Source: Geothrix sp. 21YS21S-4
Lineage (GTDB): Bacteria; Acidobacteriota; Holophagae; Holophagales; Holophagaceae
Assembly: GCF_030845995.1 (NCBI RefSeq)
Contig: NZ_CP132719.1
Span: 2,852,001-2,916,000, forward strand
Length of the DNA: 64,000 bases
Direction of reading: 5' to 3'
Numbering within the stretch: position 1 is the stretch's first letter; every line of letters begins with the position of its first letter. The notes beneath the pieces were generated by a model that saw nothing but the letters and a program-made list of their open reading frames with translations, ran no database searches and was not told where the DNA came from. Position numbers and translations under genes: made by a program. This document shows positions 50,298-58,712 of the stretch, piece by piece.

Positions 50298-53200
50298 TTA
50301 GCCGAGACCGCCGTCCGCGCCCGCCTTCGGCCCTCCCACCCACGCGTAGAAGCTGGGCAGGGCCAGCAGGGTGAACAGGGTGCTGGTGACGAGGCCGCCC
50401 ACCATGACCAGGGCCAGGGGCCGCTCCAGCTCGCTGCCGCCGAAGCCCAGCAGCATGGGGAGGAGGCCCAGGATGGCGCTGCCGGCGGTCATGAGCTTGG
50501 GCCGGACGCGGCCCAGGCTGGCCTCCTTCAGGGCATCCAGGAAGGGGAGCCCCGCGGCCGTGAGCTGCCGGGCCTGGGTGATCAGCACGAGGCTGTTCTG
50601 CACCGCCACCCCGAACAGCCCGATCATCCCGACGATGGAGCTGATGTTCCAGCTCTCGCCCGCCAGCCACAGGGCCAGCAATCCGCCCGCGAAGGCGTCC
50701 GGCAGGGTGAGGACGACGACCATCACCTCGCGCCAGCGGCCCAGCGCCAGGTAGAGCAGGCCCACCACCAGGGCGAGGGCCGCGCCGACGGCGATCGTCA
50801 GGCGCTTCTGGGTGTCCCGGGCCTCCTCCAGCTTGCCGCCGAGCTTCACGACGGTGCCCTTGGGGAGATCCAGGCTCCGCAACGCGCGCTCCACCCGCTT
50901 CCCCGTTCCCCCGAGGTCCCCGGCGGTGCGGACGTTGAGGGCGAGGCGCCGCTGGGCGGCTTCCCGGCGGATGAGGCTGGGCGTGCCTGCCTCCTCGAAC
51001 CGGGCCACTTGGCCCAGCTCCACCACCCGGCCGCCATCCAGCACCAGCGGCAGGCGCTGGAGGCTCTCGGGGCTGGTGCGGCCGTCGTCGGGAAAGCGCA
51101 CCACCCGCCCGATGTGCTGGGGGCCGTCGAACCGGGGCGCCGCGTCCAGGCCCTGGAGGGCCGCCCTCAGCGTGGTGGCGATGAGCGTCCGCGGCACGCC
51201 CAGGCGGCGGAGGGCCTCCTCGTCGGGAACCACGGTCCACTTGGGGAGGACGCCCGCCCCTTCGGGCGTGATGGAGGCCACCCCCGGCACCTTCGACAGC
51301 GCCTCCTGGAGCGCCGGCAGCCGCGCCTGGAGGAGGGCGAGATCCGGGTGGAACAGCTTCACCTGGATGTCCGCGGGCGTGCCGCCGATGCCTTCGGAAA
51401 TGCGCATCTGCATGGGCGTGGTCAGCTCCACTGGATAGGGCATCGCCTCCGCGATCTCGCCCGCCTCCCGCTGCACTTCGGCGGTGGGCCGCGATCCGTC
51501 CAGGATCACCATCACGTCGGAGATGGTGTGGGGCATGGGGTCCTCGGTCAGTTCGGACCGCCCGGTGCGGCGGTAGACCGACGCCACGCCGCGCAGCCGC
51601 GCCAGCCGCCCTTCCAGCTGGAAATTGGCCTCGTCCACCGCCGCCAGGCTCGTCTCCGCAGGCAAGATGCTGTTCAGCATCAGCGCGCCTTCGTCGAGGG
51701 GAGGCAGGAAGTTGGTCCCCAAGCGTAGCGCCAGCCACAGGCTGGGCACGGTCAGGCCGAGGGCCAGGATCCGCACCACGGCGCCGTGACGGAGCGCCCA
51801 GCGCAGCGCTGGCTCGTAGGCCCGCTTCAGGGCCCGCACCAGCCGGGGCTCCTCCAGGGCGGCCCCCGGCGGCAGGAACCGCTCCACCAGCGCCGGCACC
51901 AGCGTGAAGCTCAACACCAGGCTGAGGGTCATGGCGGCGGCGATGGCGACGGCCAAGGGCGCATACAGCCGCCCGGCGAGGCCCCCCAGCGCGAGCAGCG
52001 GAATGAACACCGCCAGGATCACCAGGACCGCCGTGAGGATAGGCACGCCCACCTCCGCGGCGGCGCGGGTGAGGACGACCCGCCGGCTCGCGACGCCGCC
52101 GTCCTCCCGGTGGAGGCGGTGCGCCAGGTTCTCCACCATGATCACGGCGGCATCCACCAGCAGGCCCACGGCGATGGCGAGACCGCCGAGGGTCATGGCA
52201 TTCAGGCCCAGCCCCGCGGCCCGCAGCGGGATCGCCGCGCCGAAGGTCGCCAGGGGCAGCACCGCGATCACGATCAGCGCCCCCCGCAGGTTGCCCAGCA
52301 GGGCCACCAGCACCAGCGCCACGAAGATCCCGCCAAGGAGCAGGGCCCAGGTCACGCCATCCAGGGCGTGCGTCACCAGCTTTCCCTGGTCGTACATCAG
52401 GGTCAGCTCCATGCCCGCGGGCAGGCTCCCGCGCAGCTCGTCCAGGGCGGCCCGCGTGCCTTGCGCCACCGCCAGGGTCTCGGCAGTGGGCTGCTTGACC
52501 ACGCGCAGGCTCACGTCCTCGTGCAGCAACTCCTCGGGGCGGGAAGCGTCCGCGCCGCCGGGCCCGTGTCCCAAGTGGCGCGCCAGGCCCCGGCGGAAGG
52601 CGGCGCCCTCGCGCACCTCCGCCAGCTCGCCGAGGGAGACCATCCCCCGGGGCGTGGCCAGGGGCAGCCGCTTCACGGCCTCCGGCGTGGCGGCGAGGCC
52701 GCCGACGGTGATGAACCAGCCCTTGTCCTGGATCTCCATCACGCCCGCGGCGGTGTCCTGGTGGCTGCCGTCCAGCGCTTCCATTACCTCGCGGAGGCTG
52801 ACGCCCTGGAGCCGCATCCGCTCGGGCTGGACGATCACCTGGAGCTGGCGCTCCTCGCCGCCGAGGCGCTCCACCCGGGCCACGCCCGGCACCGCCTGGA
52901 GGCGCGGGATGAGCACCTTCTCGGCGTGGTCGCGGAGGGTGATGGGATCGACGGCGGGGCCCTCCAGGACGATTTCCTGGATCTCCTGCAGGCGGCCCGC
53001 GGCGCTGGACATCAGCGGAGCGCGGGTCCCTTCGGGGAAGGCCGCCGTGACCCCGGCAAGCCGCTCGGCCACGAGCTGCCGGGCCCGCCATGGATCGGTG
53101 CCACCCCCGAAGGCCAGCACCACCTGGACCACTTCGGCCTGGACGCTGCTCACCACGCGCTTCACGCTGGGAAGGCCGCCCAGGGCCTGCTCCACGGGCT

Positions 53201-53432
53201 GGGCCACGGTCAGTTCCAGCTCCGGGGCGGCCCGGCCAGGGCTCTGGATCAGGAGGGTGAGGCTCGGCAGCGTGAGATCCGGGAACAGGTCGCGTTTGAG
53301 GCTGCCGAAACTGGCGACCCCAGCGGCCAGCCACAGGAGCGCCAGGGCGAAGACCCAGGCCTTGCGCGGCAACAGCCAGTCGAACCACCGCTGGAGGAAA
53401 CCCGGACGGGGAACGCGGGGCTCAGTGGTCAT
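50298..53432 (-). CDS. heavy-metal-type RND efflux pump (inner-membrane transporter)
   Basis: The 1044-residue RND transporter has twelve membrane segments in two halves, each followed by a large periplasmic loop. The TM4 region AVGLLVDAAVIMVENLAHRLHRED carries the acidic residue and VEN element of the heavy-metal efflux subfamily (CzcA/CusA-like). Other segments are FLPPLDEGALMLNSI and GMIGLFGVAVQNSLVLI. The ATG at 53432 has GGGGGAG upstream and overlaps the adaptor gene by 11 bp. The metal is not decided by sequence; Cu/Ag, Zn/Co/Cd remain possible. The His-rich adaptor supports a metal. Confidence 0.92.
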   Translation of the reverse strand: MTTEPRVPRPGFLQRWFDWLLPRKAWVFALALLWLAAGVASFGSLKRDLFPDLTLPSLTLLIQSPGRAAPELELTVAQPVEQALGGLPSVKRVVSSVQAEVVQVVLAFGGGTDPWRARQLVAERLAGVTAAFPEGTRAPLMSSAAGRLQEIQEIVLEGPAVDPITLRDHAEKVLIPRLQAVPGVARVERLGGEERQLQVIVQPERMRLQGVSLREVMEALDGSHQDTAAGVMEIQDKGWFITVGGLAATPEAVKRLPLATPRGMVSLGELAEVREGAAFRRGLARHLGHGPGGADASRPEELLHEDVSLRVVKQPTAETLAVAQGTRAALDELRGSLPAGMELTLMYDQGKLVTHALDGVTWALLLGGIFVALVLVALLGNLRGALIVIAVLPLATFGAAIPLRAAGLGLNAMTLGGLAIAVGLLVDAAVIMVENLAHRLHREDGGVASRRVVLTRAAAEVGVPILTAVLVILAVFIPLLALGGLAGRLYAPLAVAIAAAMTLSLVLSFTLVPALVERFLPPGAALEEPRLVRALKRAYEPALRWALRHGAVVRILALGLTVPSLWLALRLGTNFLPPLDEGALMLNSILPAETSLAAVDEANFQLEGRLARLRGVASVYRRTGRSELTEDPMPHTISDVMVILDGSRPTAEVQREAGEIAEAMPYPVELTTPMQMRISEGIGGTPADIQVKLFHPDLALLQARLPALQEALSKVPGVASITPEGAGVLPKWTVVPDEEALRRLGVPRTLIATTLRAALQGLDAAPRFDGPQHIGRVVRFPDDGRTSPESLQRLPLVLDGGRVVELGQVARFEEAGTPSLIRREAAQRRLALNVRTAGDLGGTGKRVERALRSLDLPKGTVVKLGGKLEEARDTQKRLTIAVGAALALVVGLLYLALGRWREVMVVVLTLPDAFAGGLLALWLAGESWNISSIVGMIGLFGVAVQNSLVLITQARQLTAAGLPFLDALKEASLGRVRPKLMTAGSAILGLLPMLLGFGGSELERPLALVMVGGLVTSTLFTLLALPSFYAWVGGPKAGADGGLG

Positions 53433-54573
53433 GGCCTTCTCCCCCGCTCTTTCGCTTGATCTGGAGGGCCTTGAGCAGGTACGCCCCTTCGCCCGCCACG
53501 GTCTCACCGGGCCGCACGCCCTCGATCACCATCACGCCGGTCCCCACTTCCGCGCCGCGGCGCACGGGGCGGAACTCGGCCTCCTCCCCTTCCTTCACGA
53601 AGACCCCCCACACGCCTTCCACCTGCTGGAGGGCGGCCTGGGGCAGGACCACCGCCGTCGCCAGCGGGACGCGCACTTCCAGCGGCGTGCCGGGCATGGG
53701 CAGGGCGCCGCCCTGGAGGCGCAGGCGGTACGCCAGGCGGTGGGTGTCCGGCGTCAGGACGCTGGGCGTGCCCTCCAGCCGGGCCTTCCACCGCTGCCCG
53801 TCGGCGCGGCGGACGTCCGTCACGGAGCCCGGCCGCCAGTCCAGCGGCGCGGGGGGCGTGAGTTCCAATCGGACGAGGGCGGCGGACGCGGCCTGGAAGC
53901 CGCCCAGGTCCTGCCCCGCCTCGATGCCCTGGCCGAGCTGCACCCGGTAGGCGGTCACGGCCCCGGCCTTGGGCGCCCGGACCGTCAGCACCGCCCCGGC
54001 GGTCTCGGCAGCGGCGCCCCGGGCCTCCAGCGCCAGACGGGCGGCCTCCTCGTCGGCGCGGGCGGTGGCGGCGTCGCTGTGGGCCGCCTCCAGCTCACGC
54101 CGGGAGCCCGCCTGCGCCTGGAACAGCCGCACTTCCCGGGCGGCCTCGGCCTCGGCGCGGTCCCGCCGCGCCCGCGCGGACAGCCAGTCCGCCTTCAGCC
54201 GGGCCAATTCTGGACTCCTAATCGAGACCAGCGCTGCACCAGCGCCCACGCGCTGCCCGGGGGCGACCAGGATCGCCGACACGATGCCCTTCACGGGGCT
54301 GCTGAGGATCGCCTGGGCCGACTCGTCGCCGATGGCCTCGGCGGGATACCAGCCGCCCTCGGCGCGGGGCTCGGGCACCGTCAGGAACCGCAGCCCGCGG
54401 ACATCCTTGAGGGGAATGTGGAGGCCTTCGCCGGCCTCGGCGGCGTGATCGCCGTGGGCGTGCGCCTCTTCGGGATGGCCGTCCGCGTGGGGATCGGCGC
54501 CCTTGCGGCCGCAGGCGGCGAGGCCCACCAGGGCCAGGGCCAGGGCCAGAAGGGCGGGTCGGAGGAAAGTCAT
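53422..54573 (-). CDS. RND periplasmic adaptor lipoprotein with His-rich ends
   Basis: This 383-residue membrane-fusion protein has a lipobox (VGLAACGRKG). Just after it is a His/Asp-rich stretch (ADPHADGHPEEAHAHGDHAA), and the C-terminus is GGEGHDH, both suited to bind metal. The adaptor has the lipoyl-like domain (SPVKGIVSAILVAPGQRVGAG), a helical hairpin (~130-190) and a barrel (ALVRLELTPPAPLDWRPGS). It shares four bases with the TolC-like gene (ATGA) and 11 with the pump. It joins the inner-membrane pump to the outer-membrane channel. Confidence 0.9.
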   Translation of the reverse strand: MTFLRPALLALALALVGLAACGRKGADPHADGHPEEAHAHGDHAAEAGEGLHIPLKDVRGLRFLTVPEPRAEGGWYPAEAIGDESAQAILSSPVKGIVSAILVAPGQRVGAGAALVSIRSPELARLKADWLSARARRDRAEAEAAREVRLFQAQAGSRRELEAAHSDAATARADEEAARLALEARGAAAETAGAVLTVRAPKAGAVTAYRVQLGQGIEAGQDLGGFQAASAALVRLELTPPAPLDWRPGSVTDVRRADGQRWKARLEGTPSVLTPDTHRLAYRLRLQGGALPMPGTPLEVRVPLATAVVLPQAALQQVEGVWGVFVKEGEEAEFRPVRRGAEVGTGVMVIEGVRPGETVAGEGAYLLKALQIKRKSGGEGHDH

Positions 54574-55742
54574 GGGGTCACCCCTTCGGTGAGGGCCTGG
54601 AGTTCGGCGGAAAGGAGATGGGCCGTCCGGAGGCGGCGGTACGCCGCGGCCTGGACGTCCAGCAGTTGGCGGCGGATGGGGAGGGCTTCGGAGGGGCGCT
54701 CGCGGCCCTCCCGGAGGCGCAGCTCCACGGCCTGGAGCGCGGGATCGAAGGCGGCGAACGCCCGGGGCGGAGCGGCCGGAAGCCGCGCCATCGCGGCCTG
54801 GAACCGGGCGTCCAGCTCCTCCAGGGCCAGTTCCCCTTCGCGGCGGCCGGCCTGGAGCGCCGCCTCGGTCTCGCGGCGCAGCGCGGCTGCCTCGCCGGGG
54901 CGGGCGAAGCGGTAGGCCAGCCCGACCCGGCCCACGCGCTCCTCGCCCTCCCGGGCATAGCTTCCCCGGAGGCTCCACCGGCTGGCGGCCAGGGCCTCCT
55001 GGTGGCGCAGCGCCTGCTGCTCCAGGTCCGCCTGGGCCAGCAGGGCCCGGCGCAGGGTCCCCGCCTCGTAGCGGGCGCGCAGCCCGTCGGGAAATCCACC
55101 CGGAGGATCGCCGGGCTCTGTCAGAGGCGCGGGCGCGGCGGGCACCTCGGCCAGGTGGCGGAGGGCGGCCCAGGCGGCCGCGCGCTGCTGCCGGGCCTCG
55201 TCCAGGTCGCCCTGGGCGCGGAGCAGTTCGCCCTCCACCAGGGCCGCCTGGAAGGCCGGATCGGCGCCGGCCTCCAACCGGGCGCGGGCGGCCTGGAGCC
55301 AGGTCTCCACCGTGGCGAGGTCGCGCTCCCGCAGGTGCAGGAGCCGCTCCGCCAGCCAAGCGTCGAGGTAGGCCCGGCGCAGCTGGAACCGGGCCTCGAT
55401 CCCGCCCGCGGATCGCAGCAGCGGATCCGCCTCCCCCAGCGCCGCTTCCAGGCGGCGCCGGACGCCGGGCGACAGGAACAGTGGAAGGTCCACCTCCACG
55501 GCCCGGTCCGTGAAGGTGGGGGCGCTCGGCTGGGCGCGGGGTCCCGCGGACAGAGCGAGGGCGGGGCCCTCCCGCAGGAAGCCGCCGGTTCCCGCCAGGG
55601 CGCGGTGGCGCTCGGCCAGCAGGGCCTCCGCGCGGTACTGGGCCGGACCGCTCCGGGCCCGGGAGAGGATGTCGTCGAACGAAAGGGGCGGCGCCTGCGC
55701 GGCCAGCACGCAGGGCAGCGCCCCCAGAAGAAGGGGTCGCAT
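54570..55742 (-). CDS. TolC-family outer-membrane efflux protein
   Basis: This 390-residue protein has a signal peptide (~1-16, LLLGALPCVLAAQ) and the TolC-family pattern of long helices with Ala/Leu/Arg. Examples are LDEARQQRAAAWAALRHLAEVP and AALRRETEAALQAGRREGELALEELDARF. It is shorter than the classical ~450-residue TolC but in range for CusC-like proteins. It is the first gene of the efflux operon proper. It is read 73 bp after the small Cys-rich protein. Confidence 0.87.
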   Translation of the reverse strand: MRPLLLGALPCVLAAQAPPLSFDDILSRARSGPAQYRAEALLAERHRALAGTGGFLREGPALALSAGPRAQPSAPTFTDRAVEVDLPLFLSPGVRRRLEAALGEADPLLRSAGGIEARFQLRRAYLDAWLAERLLHLRERDLATVETWLQAARARLEAGADPAFQAALVEGELLRAQGDLDEARQQRAAAWAALRHLAEVPAAPAPLTEPGDPPGGFPDGLRARYEAGTLRRALLAQADLEQQALRHQEALAASRWSLRGSYAREGEERVGRVGLAYRFARPGEAAALRRETEAALQAGRREGELALEELDARFQAAMARLPAAPPRAFAAFDPALQAVELRLREGRERPSEALPIRRQLLDVQAAAYRRLRTAHLLSAELQALTEGVTP

Positions 55743-55814
55743 GGAAACCTCGAAGGAATTCGCGGAAAAGCACGCAGGGCTTCGCCCCCCGTGCGCGGAC
55801 GGACGCTCAGCGCC

Positions 55815-56141
55815 CTAGGCCCGCGGCGGTTCCTTCTCGGGTTCGACGGTCAGGCTGACGAGGGACTGGGCCCGCGGCACCGCGAACCGCGGGTGGAGCC
55901 GCCGCGGCGCCGGAGGCGGAACCGGCGCCTCGGGCACCGGCGCCGTCGCGCAGTCATCCCCGCACAGCAGATGGCAGGCCGGCGCGCACCCCGCGGGCGA
56001 CGTGTCAGGACACACCTCCCGCCCCGCCGCCCCCAGATAGAGCCCCATCAAGCAGAGCAGCAGCGCCGCCACCCACCGCCGCACCCTCGCCCCGCCCCGC
56101 CGAGGGACACCGCCGGAGGGCTGTCGGGACGACATGGCCAT
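55815..56141 (-). CDS. small Cys-rich membrane-anchored or exported protein at head of efflux operon
   Basis: This 108-residue protein has a basic N-terminus, one hydrophobic segment (~24-39, VAALLLCLMGLYLGAAG) and a short Cys cluster (CPDTSPAGCAPACHLLCGDD, then one more Cys). A Pro-rich tail follows. Five Cys and a His in 22 residues suggest metal or disulfide binding in the periplasm. No family was recognised. It lies on the same strand as the efflux genes and is divergent from the BlaI-like gene. The start (56141 or 56135) is not decided; no strong ribosome site is seen. Confidence 0.55.
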   Translation of the reverse strand: MAMSSRQPSGGVPRRGGARVRRWVAALLLCLMGLYLGAAGREVCPDTSPAGCAPACHLLCGDDCATAPVPEAPVPPPAPRRLHPRFAVPRAQSLVSLTVEPEKEPPRA

Positions 56142-56200
56142 CGGGCCATGCTACACGACGGGAAAGAAAAACCTGGAAAGGGACGGCCCCCACTAAACCT

Positions 56201-56244
56201 TCTACGAACCCCCTCGTTGACATCTACGAAACATGTCGTATCTT
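56201..56244 (+). promoter_or_regulatory. probable promoter and BlaI-type operator
   Basis: TTGACA (56217-56222), a 16-bp spacer and TATCTT (56239-56244) form a good promoter. The spacer holds the dyad TACGA-N6-TCGTA (56225-56240), overlapping the -10 box. TCTACGAA occurs twice (56201 and 56223), 22 bp apart. A BlaI-family repressor binding here would control its own gene. It could also affect the divergent small Cys-rich protein gene. Confidence 0.6.
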
Positions 56245-56274
56245 TTCGGCATTCCTTCTCTGGAGCCCGATCCC

Positions 56275-56658
56275 ATGCAGCCTTCCCCCAAGCCGACCGA
56301 CGCTGAACTGGCCATCCTGCGGGTGCTGTGGGCCCGGGGGCCGAGCACGGTGCGGCAGGTGTTCGAGGTGCTGTCGGCGGAGCGGGAGCTGGGCTACACG
56401 ACGGTCCTGAAGATGCTCCAGATCATGGATGAAAAGGGGCTGGTGCAGCGCGACGCGGCGGACCGGGTCCACATCTTTTCCGCCACGGAGACCCAGGTCC
56501 AGACCCAGCGGCATCTGCTCGACGACCTGCTGGACAAGGCGTTCGGGGGTTCGTCCCTCAGCCTGGTGATGCAGGCCCTCGCCACCCGCAAGGCCAGCCA
56601 CGAGGAGCTGGCCGAGATCCGCAAAATGCTCGATCAGGCCGAAGGAGGTCCGCGATGA
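56275..56658 (+). CDS. BlaI/MecI/CopY-family transcriptional repressor
   Basis: This 127-residue protein has a winged-helix DNA-binding domain (~8-70): TDAELAILRVLWARGPSTVR, YTTVLKMLQIMDEKGLV and the Arg-rich wing. A C-terminal helical dimerisation region follows (~75-125). The ATG at 56275 follows GGAG and aligns with family starts; an earlier ATG at 56233 lies within the promoter. It overlaps the M56 protein gene by four bases (ATGA), the standard repressor-protease pairing. In the family the repressor is released or cleaved when the membrane metallopeptidase is activated. Confidence 0.92.
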   Translation: MQPSPKPTDAELAILRVLWARGPSTVRQVFEVLSAERELGYTTVLKMLQIMDEKGLVQRDAADRVHIFSATETQVQTQRHLLDDLLDKAFGGSSLSLVMQALATRKASHEELAEIRKMLDQAEGGPR

Positions 56659-58712
56659 CGTCCCTGCTGCCGTGGCTCCAGACTCCCTCGGCTCAGGCCC
56701 TGGGCTGGACCCTCCTTCATTTCCTGTGGCAGGGCGCCGCCCTGGGGCTGATGGCTTGGCTGGGAATGGCCCTGCTCCGGGGCGCCAGCGCGAAGGCCCG
56801 CTACGGCACCGCCTGCGCCTTCCTGGTGCTGATGGTCGCGGCGCCGGTGGCCACGTTCCTCTTCCTCCAGCGGCAGGTCCCGGCCGTTCCCGCGGCGCTG
56901 GAAGGAACTCTGGCAGCCGCGGCATCCGCGCCGCGGATCGACGCGCCGCTGAGCCTCCGGATCAAGGCCGCACTGGATCCCGCCCTCCCCTGGCTGCTGG
57001 GCGGCTGGGCGGCGGGCGTCCTGCTGCTGTCGGGGCGCTTCCTGGGCGGCTGGGCGCGGATCCAGCGGCTGCGGCGACGCAGCGCGTCCCCGGCGCCCGC
57101 GGAATGGCACTTGGTGCTGTCCCGCCTCTGCCGGGAGTTGAAGGTCTCGCGCACGGTGCGCCTGCTCCAGTCCGCGGCGGTGGAAGTGCCCACGGTCCTG
57201 GGCTGGCTGCGGCCCGTGATCCTGCTGCCGGCCTGCGCCCTCGCGGGACTGGCCCCGGCCCAGCTGGAGGCCATCCTCGCCCACGAATTGGCCCACATCC
57301 GCCGGGGCGACTTCGCCGTGAACCTGCTCCAGTCGCTGGTGGAAGTGCTGCTGTTCTACCACCCCGCCGTGTGGTGGCTGTCCGCCCGCATCCGCGCCGA
57401 GCGCGAGCTCTGCTGCGACGACGTGGCGGCAGCCCTCTGCGGCGATCCCCTGCTCCTGGCCCGTGCGCTCACCGACCTCGAGGCCCTGCGCGAGCCCGCG
57501 TCCCTTCCTTCCCATCGCCTGGCCCTGGCCGCCAACGGAGGCTCCCTCATGCACCGCGTCCGACACCTGCTCCAGCCTTCGCTCCCCGCCTCGGGCGGCG
57601 CGCGGGCCGCCGCCCTCGCGCTCCTCGCCGCCTCGCTTCTCGGGGCCGCGGGCGCCGTTCTCCAGGAGAAGGCCTCCGATTCCAAGTCTCAGCACAGCAC
57701 GCGGCTGAAGGTCCTCGACGGCGACCGCCAGATGGACGTCCAGGTGAAGGGCGACGTCCGCCTGGACGCCACGGCCCGCGAGCCGGTGGCCGTGCCCGGC
57801 GACGGCAGCTTCCGCGTGGAGGAGAAGACCGGCGGGAAGACCCGCGCCTACAGCGCCTCCAAGGACAAGCGGACCTACACCGTGGACGGCCAGGAGAAGG
57901 AACTGGACGCCGAGGGCGAGGCCTGGCTGCGCGGCGCCGTGAAGGACACGGCCCAGGCCCAGACGGGCCGCGAAACCGCCCGCAAGCTGCGGATCCGCAC
58001 CGCGGGGCTCGACGACCATACCCGCGACCTGGCCCGCCAGACCCGGGAGCTGGAGGCCCAGCTGCGCTCCATCCAGGCCAACCCGGATCTGAGCTCCGAA
58101 GCGCGCGCCCGCACTCAGGCGGACGTAGAGAAAGCGCGAATAGAGATCGAGAAGAACCGCGCCGAGCTGGAGAAGGCCCGCGCGGAGGTGGAAAAGCACC
58201 GCGCCGAGATCGATCGGGCCCGCGCCGAGGCTCGGAAGATCCGCGTGCAGGTGACGAACGAGGGCGACAGCGCCGAAACCGTGATCGTCCGCGACCGGGT
58301 CCACCCCAGGACCGGAACGGACAAGCGCCTCCAGGTCCTGCGGAAGCACGCCGCGGACAAGGACGGGGACGAGGACATCGATTTGGATCTCGACCTGGAC
58401 CTCGATGTCGACCTGGACGAACTGGCGAACCTCCAGATCCCGCCCATCGCGCCCGTCCACCTCTCCAAGCTCCACGTCCAGCCGGACCCCCACGCGGAGA
58501 TCCAGGCCCTGCAGTCCGCCATGAAGTCCCTCCAGAAGCGGCTCGACCAGCTCCAGGCGCGGGCGGCGGCCCAGCCCCGGCCCTTGAAGCCCCTCAAGCC
58601 GGCCACCCTCAAGAGCGTGCCGCCCCCCCCTGTCCCTCCGCCCGCCCCAGGCTCCCGGCCCGTTCCTCCCACCCCCCCGGCGCCGCCCGCGCCGCCGGTT
58701 CCCGAGGATTGA
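56655..58712 (+). CDS. BlaR1-like M56 metallopeptidase with unusual C-terminus
   Basis: This 685-residue membrane protein has four or five membrane segments, at ~16-40, 50-70, 110-128, 222-240 and 318-335. The M56 zinc site is HELAH (210-214) followed by ERELCCDD (249-256). No penicillin-binding sensor domain (SxxK...KTG) is seen. After the last membrane segment comes a beta-rich part (~345-425), then a charged coiled coil (~440-535). A DLDLDLDLD-type Asp-Leu run (574-590) and a Pro-rich tail (~640-685) follow. The inferred role is signal-responsive control of the BlaI-like repressor. The signal is unknown. Confidence 0.88.
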   Translation: MTSLLPWLQTPSAQALGWTLLHFLWQGAALGLMAWLGMALLRGASAKARYGTACAFLVLMVAAPVATFLFLQRQVPAVPAALEGTLAAAASAPRIDAPLSLRIKAALDPALPWLLGGWAAGVLLLSGRFLGGWARIQRLRRRSASPAPAEWHLVLSRLCRELKVSRTVRLLQSAAVEVPTVLGWLRPVILLPACALAGLAPAQLEAILAHELAHIRRGDFAVNLLQSLVEVLLFYHPAVWWLSARIRAERELCCDDVAAALCGDPLLLARALTDLEALREPASLPSHRLALAANGGSLMHRVRHLLQPSLPASGGARAAALALLAASLLGAAGAVLQEKASDSKSQHSTRLKVLDGDRQMDVQVKGDVRLDATAREPVAVPGDGSFRVEEKTGGKTRAYSASKDKRTYTVDGQEKELDAEGEAWLRGAVKDTAQAQTGRETARKLRIRTAGLDDHTRDLARQTRELEAQLRSIQANPDLSSEARARTQADVEKARIEIEKNRAELEKARAEVEKHRAEIDRARAEARKIRVQVTNEGDSAETVIVRDRVHPRTGTDKRLQVLRKHAADKDGDEDIDLDLDLDLDVDLDELANLQIPPIAPVHLSKLHVQPDPHAEIQALQSAMKSLQKRLDQLQARAAAQPRPLKPLKPATLKSVPPPPVPPPAPGSRPVPPTPPAPPAPPVPED

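Follow-up and report, generated by a model that had tools for sequence, protein, structure and literature searches.

The window analysed here is a stretch of 64,000 nucleotides from the genome of Geothrix sp. 21YS21S-4, a bacterium of soil and sediment (3.08 Mb in one contig, C1; the window is C1:2852001-2916000), and the system in question is a pair of genes within it, blaI for a BlaI-type repressor and a second gene for an M56 membrane metalloprotease. The pair is a real and well conserved unit. With a probability of roughly 60%, it is a self-repressed signalling unit in which an event at the envelope activates the zinc protease, BlaI is removed and a few unlinked targets are released, the cell envelope or the peptidoglycan being most likely what it watches. 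The operators, the pairing of the genes, the unlinked sites and the absence of a linkage to efflux were all established by comparison of loci; the proteolysis of BlaI, the direction of control and the nature of the signal are what we infer. The repressor-protease core is ordinary, and the ectodomain and the likely targets are new.

In the proposed mechanism, BlaI would occupy two operators on its own promoter, one over the -35 element and one over the spacer. An ectodomain composed of a beta-sheet domain and a coiled coil would sense an event outside the inner membrane, the signal would activate the cytosolic zinc protease of the M56 protein, and the activated protease would remove BlaI, so that the pair and a few unlinked targets are expressed. 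The targets indicated by the operator dyad in this genome would be a PF00144 serine hydrolase, whose gene is flanked by an amgK-like and a murU-like gene, and a putative zinc peptidase with DUF5700. It is because these candidates are a hydrolase among genes of the cell-wall-recycling type and a DUF5700 protein that the envelope or peptidoglycan appears the most likely object of sensing.

Other bacteria, too, have BlaI-M56 pairs that lack a penicillin sensor; to our knowledge, the sensed signal and the targets of such pairs are known in few cases. Judged from titles, no publication dealing with the Geothrix pair was recognised in the literature. With an operator defined across 25 promoters, a short list of targets and a named ectodomain family, the proposal is testable in culturable Geothrix.

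The gene pair, its promoter and its operators

The repressor (positions 56275..56658, forward strand, 127 residues, no cysteine) belongs to the Penicillinase_R family (PF03965, 92 bits against a Pfam cut-off of 22.6), and the protease (56655..58712, forward strand, 685 residues) to Peptidase_M56 (PF05569, 96.4 bits against a cut-off of 31). A preliminary description of this DNA, made from its letters alone, had the coordinates, frames and features right. The two genes share a four-base overlap and form a single operon. We refer to the pair as system A, and compared it with 25 other orthologous loci (L039-L058, L060, L107-L110), in which the DNA upstream of blaI was covered for at least 6 kb in 21, for 2.2 and 3.1 kb in two, and hardly at all in two. 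BlaI had 78-91% identity to its counterparts in 24 same-genus loci. Downstream of the pair, on the opposite strand, a DinG-like helicase gene was present in 21/25 loci; in the other four (L052, L053, L058 and L060) the contig stops in or just past the M56 gene. Upstream, no open reading frame family within 3.5 kb was common to more than 3 of 21 system-A loci, and no conserved operon partner was found among the compared loci.

A simple promoter scan of positions 55700-56500 found a single promoter, with 10/12 matches (mean of shuffled sequences 0.0): a -35 element TTGACA (56217..56222) and a -10 element TATCTT (56239..56244), both on the forward strand and separated by a 16-bp spacer. Two operators, likewise given on the forward strand, are fitted into it. 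O1, TACGAACCCCCTCGTT (56203..56218, TACGA-N6-TCGTT), overlaps the -35 element and is exact in 25/25 promoters, that of the window included. O2, TACGAAACATGTCGTA (56225..56240, TACGA-N6-TCGTA), fills the spacer between the two elements and is exact in 23/25, with one mismatch each in L042 and L055. This promoter set consists of the window, 20 other loci and four more; L056, whose contig ends without blaI, was left out. The earlier account had correctly described the dyad TACGA-N6-TCGTA, which is O2, on the repressor promoter, and had overlooked O1. The exact dyad TACGA-N6-TCGTA occurs three times in the 3.08-Mb genome and its reversed control not at all.

The palindromes on the unit's own promoter are thus, at the level of sequence, what is expected of a BlaI-family repressor, and auto-repression of blaI and the M56 gene through O1 and O2 is very likely. 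Since the upstream neighbours vary between species, the operators belong to the blaI-M56 unit itself, with BlaI as the presumed binding protein.

A further element, CTAAACC, lies just upstream of O1 (56193-56199). The pattern CTAAAYC or CTAAYC is found at most 120 bp upstream of blaI in 17/25 system-A promoters, and a similar CTAAYCC precedes the dyad of several promoters of PF00144 genes.

The M56 protease and its ectodomain

BlaR1 carries the motifs H201EXXH and E242XXXD and is reported to act on BlaI (PMC9834060), which is described as undergoing regulated proteolysis by BlaR1 (PMC7593790). In the window protein the HELAH zinc-site motif (residues 210-214, 57282..57296, forward strand, as for all parts of this protein) aligns with the former and E251-xxx-D255 (57405..57419) with the latter, while D219 aligns with Asp210 of BlaR1; the protein is thereby a member of the M56 gluzincins. 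The modelled residues 16-296 were superimposed on the cryo-EM structure of Staphylococcus aureus BlaR1 (8exs) with Z 10.4 and a root mean square deviation of 6.8 over 234 aligned residues. Residue 268 (57456-57458) is Leu throughout the 23 aligned proteins of system A and Tyr in several paralogues; it may be the counterpart of Tyr261 of BlaR1, the alignment with BlaR1 stopping before that column.

No penicillin-binding or beta-lactamase domain was found in the protein in Pfam at E <= 0.1. The model blaR1_generic covers residues 116-256 only and scores 82.8 bits against a cut-off of 400. The C-terminal penicillin-binding sensor of BlaR1/MecR1, which resembles a class D beta-lactamase, was thus not found, in keeping with the earlier view of a BlaR1-like protease paired with BlaI and lacking a penicillin-binding sensor.

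AlphaFold models place a beta-sheet domain at about residues 347-416 (57693..57902), after the last membrane helix. Modelled alone (residues 344-450), this domain reached a mean pLDDT of 80 and a pTM of 0.69; the full-length model was modest (mean pLDDT 66.5). It is followed by a long coiled coil (residues 419-527, 57909..58235), modelled as two helices (419-475 and 481-527), moderately conserved and of varying length, which in the full-length model gave similar Z values against many unrelated coils. A second short helix or coil (residues 612-638, 58488..58568) appears in the model and is conserved, and the Pro-rich tail (58617..58709) is conserved in character. The coiled coil and the tail had been predicted previously, together with an Asp-Leu run at residues 574-590. 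The run is indeed present in the window protein, but in an alignment with 22 orthologues its columns have mostly low identity and gaps, and as a functional signature it was ruled out.

Searches of the PDB for relatives of the beta domain gave no Foldseek match at E <= 0.001 and no sequence relative under E 0.038. The best VIA match, a polo box of Plk4 with Z 7.0, falls inside the noise range stated for that tool.

Unlinked dyad sites and relatives of the beta domain

The exact dyad TACGA-N6-TCGTA was searched for in 47 same-genus genomes, with the reversed pattern as control. It was found at 47 places in 24 of the genomes, as against 13 for the control. System-A promoters account for 23 of the places and promoters of a second type of BlaI-M56 pair for 19 (eight of these were read, six were placed by coordinates and five were assigned without a check). 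Two of the remaining five are in the window genome, and G032, G020 and G029 have one each. The sites at 100157 in the window genome and at 2000166 in G020 precede genes for PF00144 serine hydrolases, those at 1623851 in the window genome and at C102:33743 in G032 precede genes for DUF5700 putative zinc peptidases, and the one in G029 appears by eye to lie inside another gene. The two target genes of the window genome match their families with 214.6 bits (PF00144) and 82.2 bits (DUF5700); the counterparts in other genomes were located by tblastn.

The second type of pair is exemplified by L099:6494-7810, with similar loci in L100-L106. Its operator has the form TACGAA-N4-TTCGTA, and the ectodomain in L099 looks TonB-C-like by eye. 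One further locus, L070 (G006:C7:44000-60000), holds three BlaI-M56 pairs inside about 6 kb.

The PF00144 hydrolase has five orthologues in the genus with 70-78% identity, and all six promoters, that of the window genome included, carry the dyad (0, 1, 2, 1, 1 and 1 mismatches of 10), the flanks of G002/G033 and of G026/G018 being near-identical, so that these are not six independent events. The gene stands between a murU-like gene (6/6) and an amgK-like gene (5/6; the sixth contig is cut). Both assignments are below the curated cut-offs, with E 1.6e-23 for NCBIfam AmgK and E 1.9e-4 for MurU. AmgK and MurU serve cell-wall recycling. As to DUF5700, the dyad precedes 2/4 well-matched genes, a partial fifth match (G012) being left out.

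The hydrolase also bears on the alternative that the unit responds to beta-lactams in the manner of BlaR1, whether directly or indirectly, and that the PF00144 protein is a beta-lactamase. Its sequence has an SxxK (SSTK) and an HxG (HSG) motif, class C beta-lactamases are among its NCBIfam matches, and in Bacillus licheniformis a peptidoglycan dipeptide is reported to destabilise the complex of BlaI with DNA (PMC3305447). On the other hand, the protein is under the curated cut-off of the best 25 of the 46 NCBIfam models matched, the best match being a D-aminopeptidase; the class C beta-lactamase model scores 75.3 bits against a cut-off of 415, which does not qualify the protein as such an enzyme, and the M56 protein has no penicillin-binding domain match in the Pfam search described above. 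We consider beta-lactam sensing decidedly unlikely.

Relatives of the beta domain were sought with a profile, which matched 33/297 Acidobacteriota genomes. Outside the main list of orthologues 13 such loci were read, ten with an HExxH motif in the same frame and three without; one of the 13, L203, is system A from the same genus. No Pfam M56 match was found in the three without HExxH, two of which have, by eye, a signal-like start and helical repeats. In a distant family, represented by L219, the BlaI-M56 pair is divergent from a gene for a fusion (within L219:2230-7586) of PF00144 (217 bits) and Peptidase_M15 (114.7 bits), the latter being the family of D-Ala-D-Ala dipeptidases. Between the fusion gene and the pair are tandem palindromes resembling CACCATATGGTG, and the M56 protein of this locus appears to contain two copies of the beta domain. 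At another beta-domain M56 locus, L217, aquaporin-like and arsenate-reductase-like genes were seen upstream by eye.

Five Holophagaceae (L160-L164) have the ectodomain as a stand-alone protein of 301-308 residues. It starts at the position that corresponds to Met299 in the full M56 protein, and it retains the membrane helix, the beta domain, the C-terminal coil and the Pro-rich tail. Near the gene, no match to BlaI or to the M56 protease domain was found in four loci with wider flanks (L061-L064); in L062 and L063, where the contig reaches far enough, it precedes the same DinG gene. The pN/pS of the stand-alone protein was 0.34 (0.26-0.43, 10 pairs), close to the medians of 0.32-0.38 for regions of full M56 proteins; the gene is therefore not decaying and is under purifying selection. 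This suggests that the stand-alone domain acts by itself, e.g. by binding a ligand of the wall or envelope. Tentatively, the beta domain could be an unnamed envelope sensor module that replaces the penicillin-binding sensor of BlaR1 in Acidobacteriota, links BlaI-M56 switches to trans-acting peptidoglycan-peptide hydrolases, and is freed as an exported protein where protease and repressor are lost; we hold this possible, with the odds against it.

Several observations weigh against a unit that watches the envelope through unlinked targets. The DUF5700 homologues in G029 and G020 are without the dyad, as are all but one of eight other PF00144 homologues checked, and the PF00144-M15 neighbour was seen at 1/10 beta-domain M56 loci (wider flanks). 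Since an orthologue of the PF00144 hydrolase is present in only 6/47 genomes, its gene is not the ancestral main target. A second BlaI in the window genome may bind the same dyad. Chance sites are expected at about 0.28 per genome from the reversed control and about 0.6 from base composition, and single dyad sites therefore prove little. Scanned genome-wide for weaker sites, the window genome, the only one so treated, gave 31 strand hits with one mismatch compared with 52 for the reversed control, and no regulon was drawn from them. Moreover, 23 genomes are without an exact dyad, and in 20 of the 24 that have one the exact dyads are at promoters of the BlaI-M56 type only (the five unchecked second-type sites included).

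This last count, together with the lack of a conserved operon partner, would fit a closed autoregulatory pair, the output of which is the amount of M56 protease, cleaving other membrane or envelope substrates. Such a pair is at odds with the dyad on the PF00144 and DUF5700 promoters of several species, and we judge it unlikely. The reading that we prefer remains the self-repressed unit with a few unlinked targets at the envelope.

The efflux cassette and comparison with known systems

Divergent from blaI, and outside its unit, are genes on the reverse strand for an outer-membrane efflux protein (OEP), a CzcB-type adaptor whose ends are rich in His and a CusA/CzcA-type RND permease (50298..55742), as well as for a small Cys-rich protein directly before the OEP gene (55815..56084). 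The conserved start of the latter is probably the GTG at 56084 and not 56141, and its export was judged by eye. The protein has a Cys/His cluster of the form CAPxCHxxCxDxCAT-like, and its gene directly precedes that for OEP in 20/20 loci (the window and 19 others). This heavy-metal operon is as the preliminary description had it. The description went further, proposing that metal or envelope stress is what the M56 protein responds to and that BlaI controls the adjacent efflux genes.

The divergent position of the operon in the window genome favours such control, and a BlaI/BlaR1-type pair that answers copper, PetR/PetP, is reported in cyanobacteria (PMC7896320). In contrast, none of the 25 other system-A loci has CzcB, OEP or the Cys-rich protein beside the pair, so that within the genus efflux neighbours are consistently lacking; CzcA matches only distant RND permeases in L048 and L108 (23% identity), which lie roughly 6 kb and 4 kb away from blaI. 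OEP homologues are present in 26/47 same-genus genomes, and the best 19 of these loci outside the window genome (L167-L185, flanks up to 1.5 kb) were inspected. BlaI or M56 stood beside the cassette in 0/19, and the dyad, at up to two mismatches, was found before the Cys-rich gene in 0/19 (up to 800 bp; 487 bp in L170 and 110 bp in L174). The simple scan of 55700-56500 found no sigma-70-like promoter directed toward the efflux genes, and the operators of the window are the ancestral ones of blaI, fitted to the blaI promoter. At a threshold of E <= 1e-3, neither CzcA nor CzcB matched around the ten beta-domain M56 loci (wider flanks, some contigs short). L221 has a match to the Cys-rich protein (E 5.7e-4) that lies within the M56 reading frame, and OEP matched weakly (E 8.7e-4) in L228, which belongs to the three beta-domain loci lacking M56.

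In 12/19 other cassettes the Cys-rich gene begins where an ArsR-like gene ends; the one ArsR-like member checked matched HTH_5 with 36.1 bits. No close copy of the ArsR-like gene is present in the window genome, where the best match has 30% identity and lies elsewhere. The window cassette could accordingly have gained a new regulator, and this sign of some rewiring also counts against our reading. ArsR loss is not special to the window genome, because no such open reading frame was seen by motif in 7/19 other cassettes either, none of which adjoins BlaI: three have none (L167, L171, L172), L174 is cut near the contig end, and L168, L170 and L182 have remnants by eye.

As to a metal signal, CopY/TcrY repressors have a cysteine metal site. 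The window BlaI has no cysteine and scores 48 bits with the CopY/TcrY model, far under the cut-off of 121.95 (an equivalog score), so that it is not a CopY/TcrY repressor; metal sensing by BlaI itself was ruled out on these two grounds, and a metal signal found no support.

Judged from these comparisons, the heavy-metal pump next to the pair forms a cassette of its own, its control by BlaI is not supported, and co-regulation was ruled out by the neighbourhood comparison (0/25 loci; cassette apart from BlaI in 19/19). BlaI may have some effect on the cassette in this particular genome; as an account of the system, metal- or stress-dependent control of efflux is quite improbable. The adjacency in a single genome proved misleading.

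Compared with CopY/TcrY, then, the window repressor shares the winged-helix family and differs in its low score and its lack of cysteine. The closest known system is BlaI-BlaR1 of S. aureus and B. licheniformis, which likewise has a BlaI-family repressor beside an M56 gluzincin. The zinc-site motifs are the same and the N-terminal part is similar in the model; operators on the unit's own promoter and a gene with a beta-lactamase fold among the likely targets are also common to both. The window system differs from it in that no penicillin-binding sensor was found in the M56 protein, the ectodomain of which consists of a beta-sheet domain and a coiled coil, in that the hydrolase gene is unlinked, and in its operator, TACGA-N6-TCGTA. 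A BlaI motif is reported in mycobacteria (PMC12565901), and the BlaR1 homologue of Mycobacterium tuberculosis is described as an M56 protease without an equivalent sensor domain (PMC9834060); the window protein is similar in this respect, but has a large extracytoplasmic domain of its own, and the likely targets differ. PetR-PetP, as reported (PMC7896320), resembles the window pair in joining a BlaI-family factor to a BlaR1-family protease for a purpose other than antibiotic resistance and with a small regulon; it answers copper and controls plastocyanin and cytochrome c6, whereas the likely targets of the window pair are different ones.

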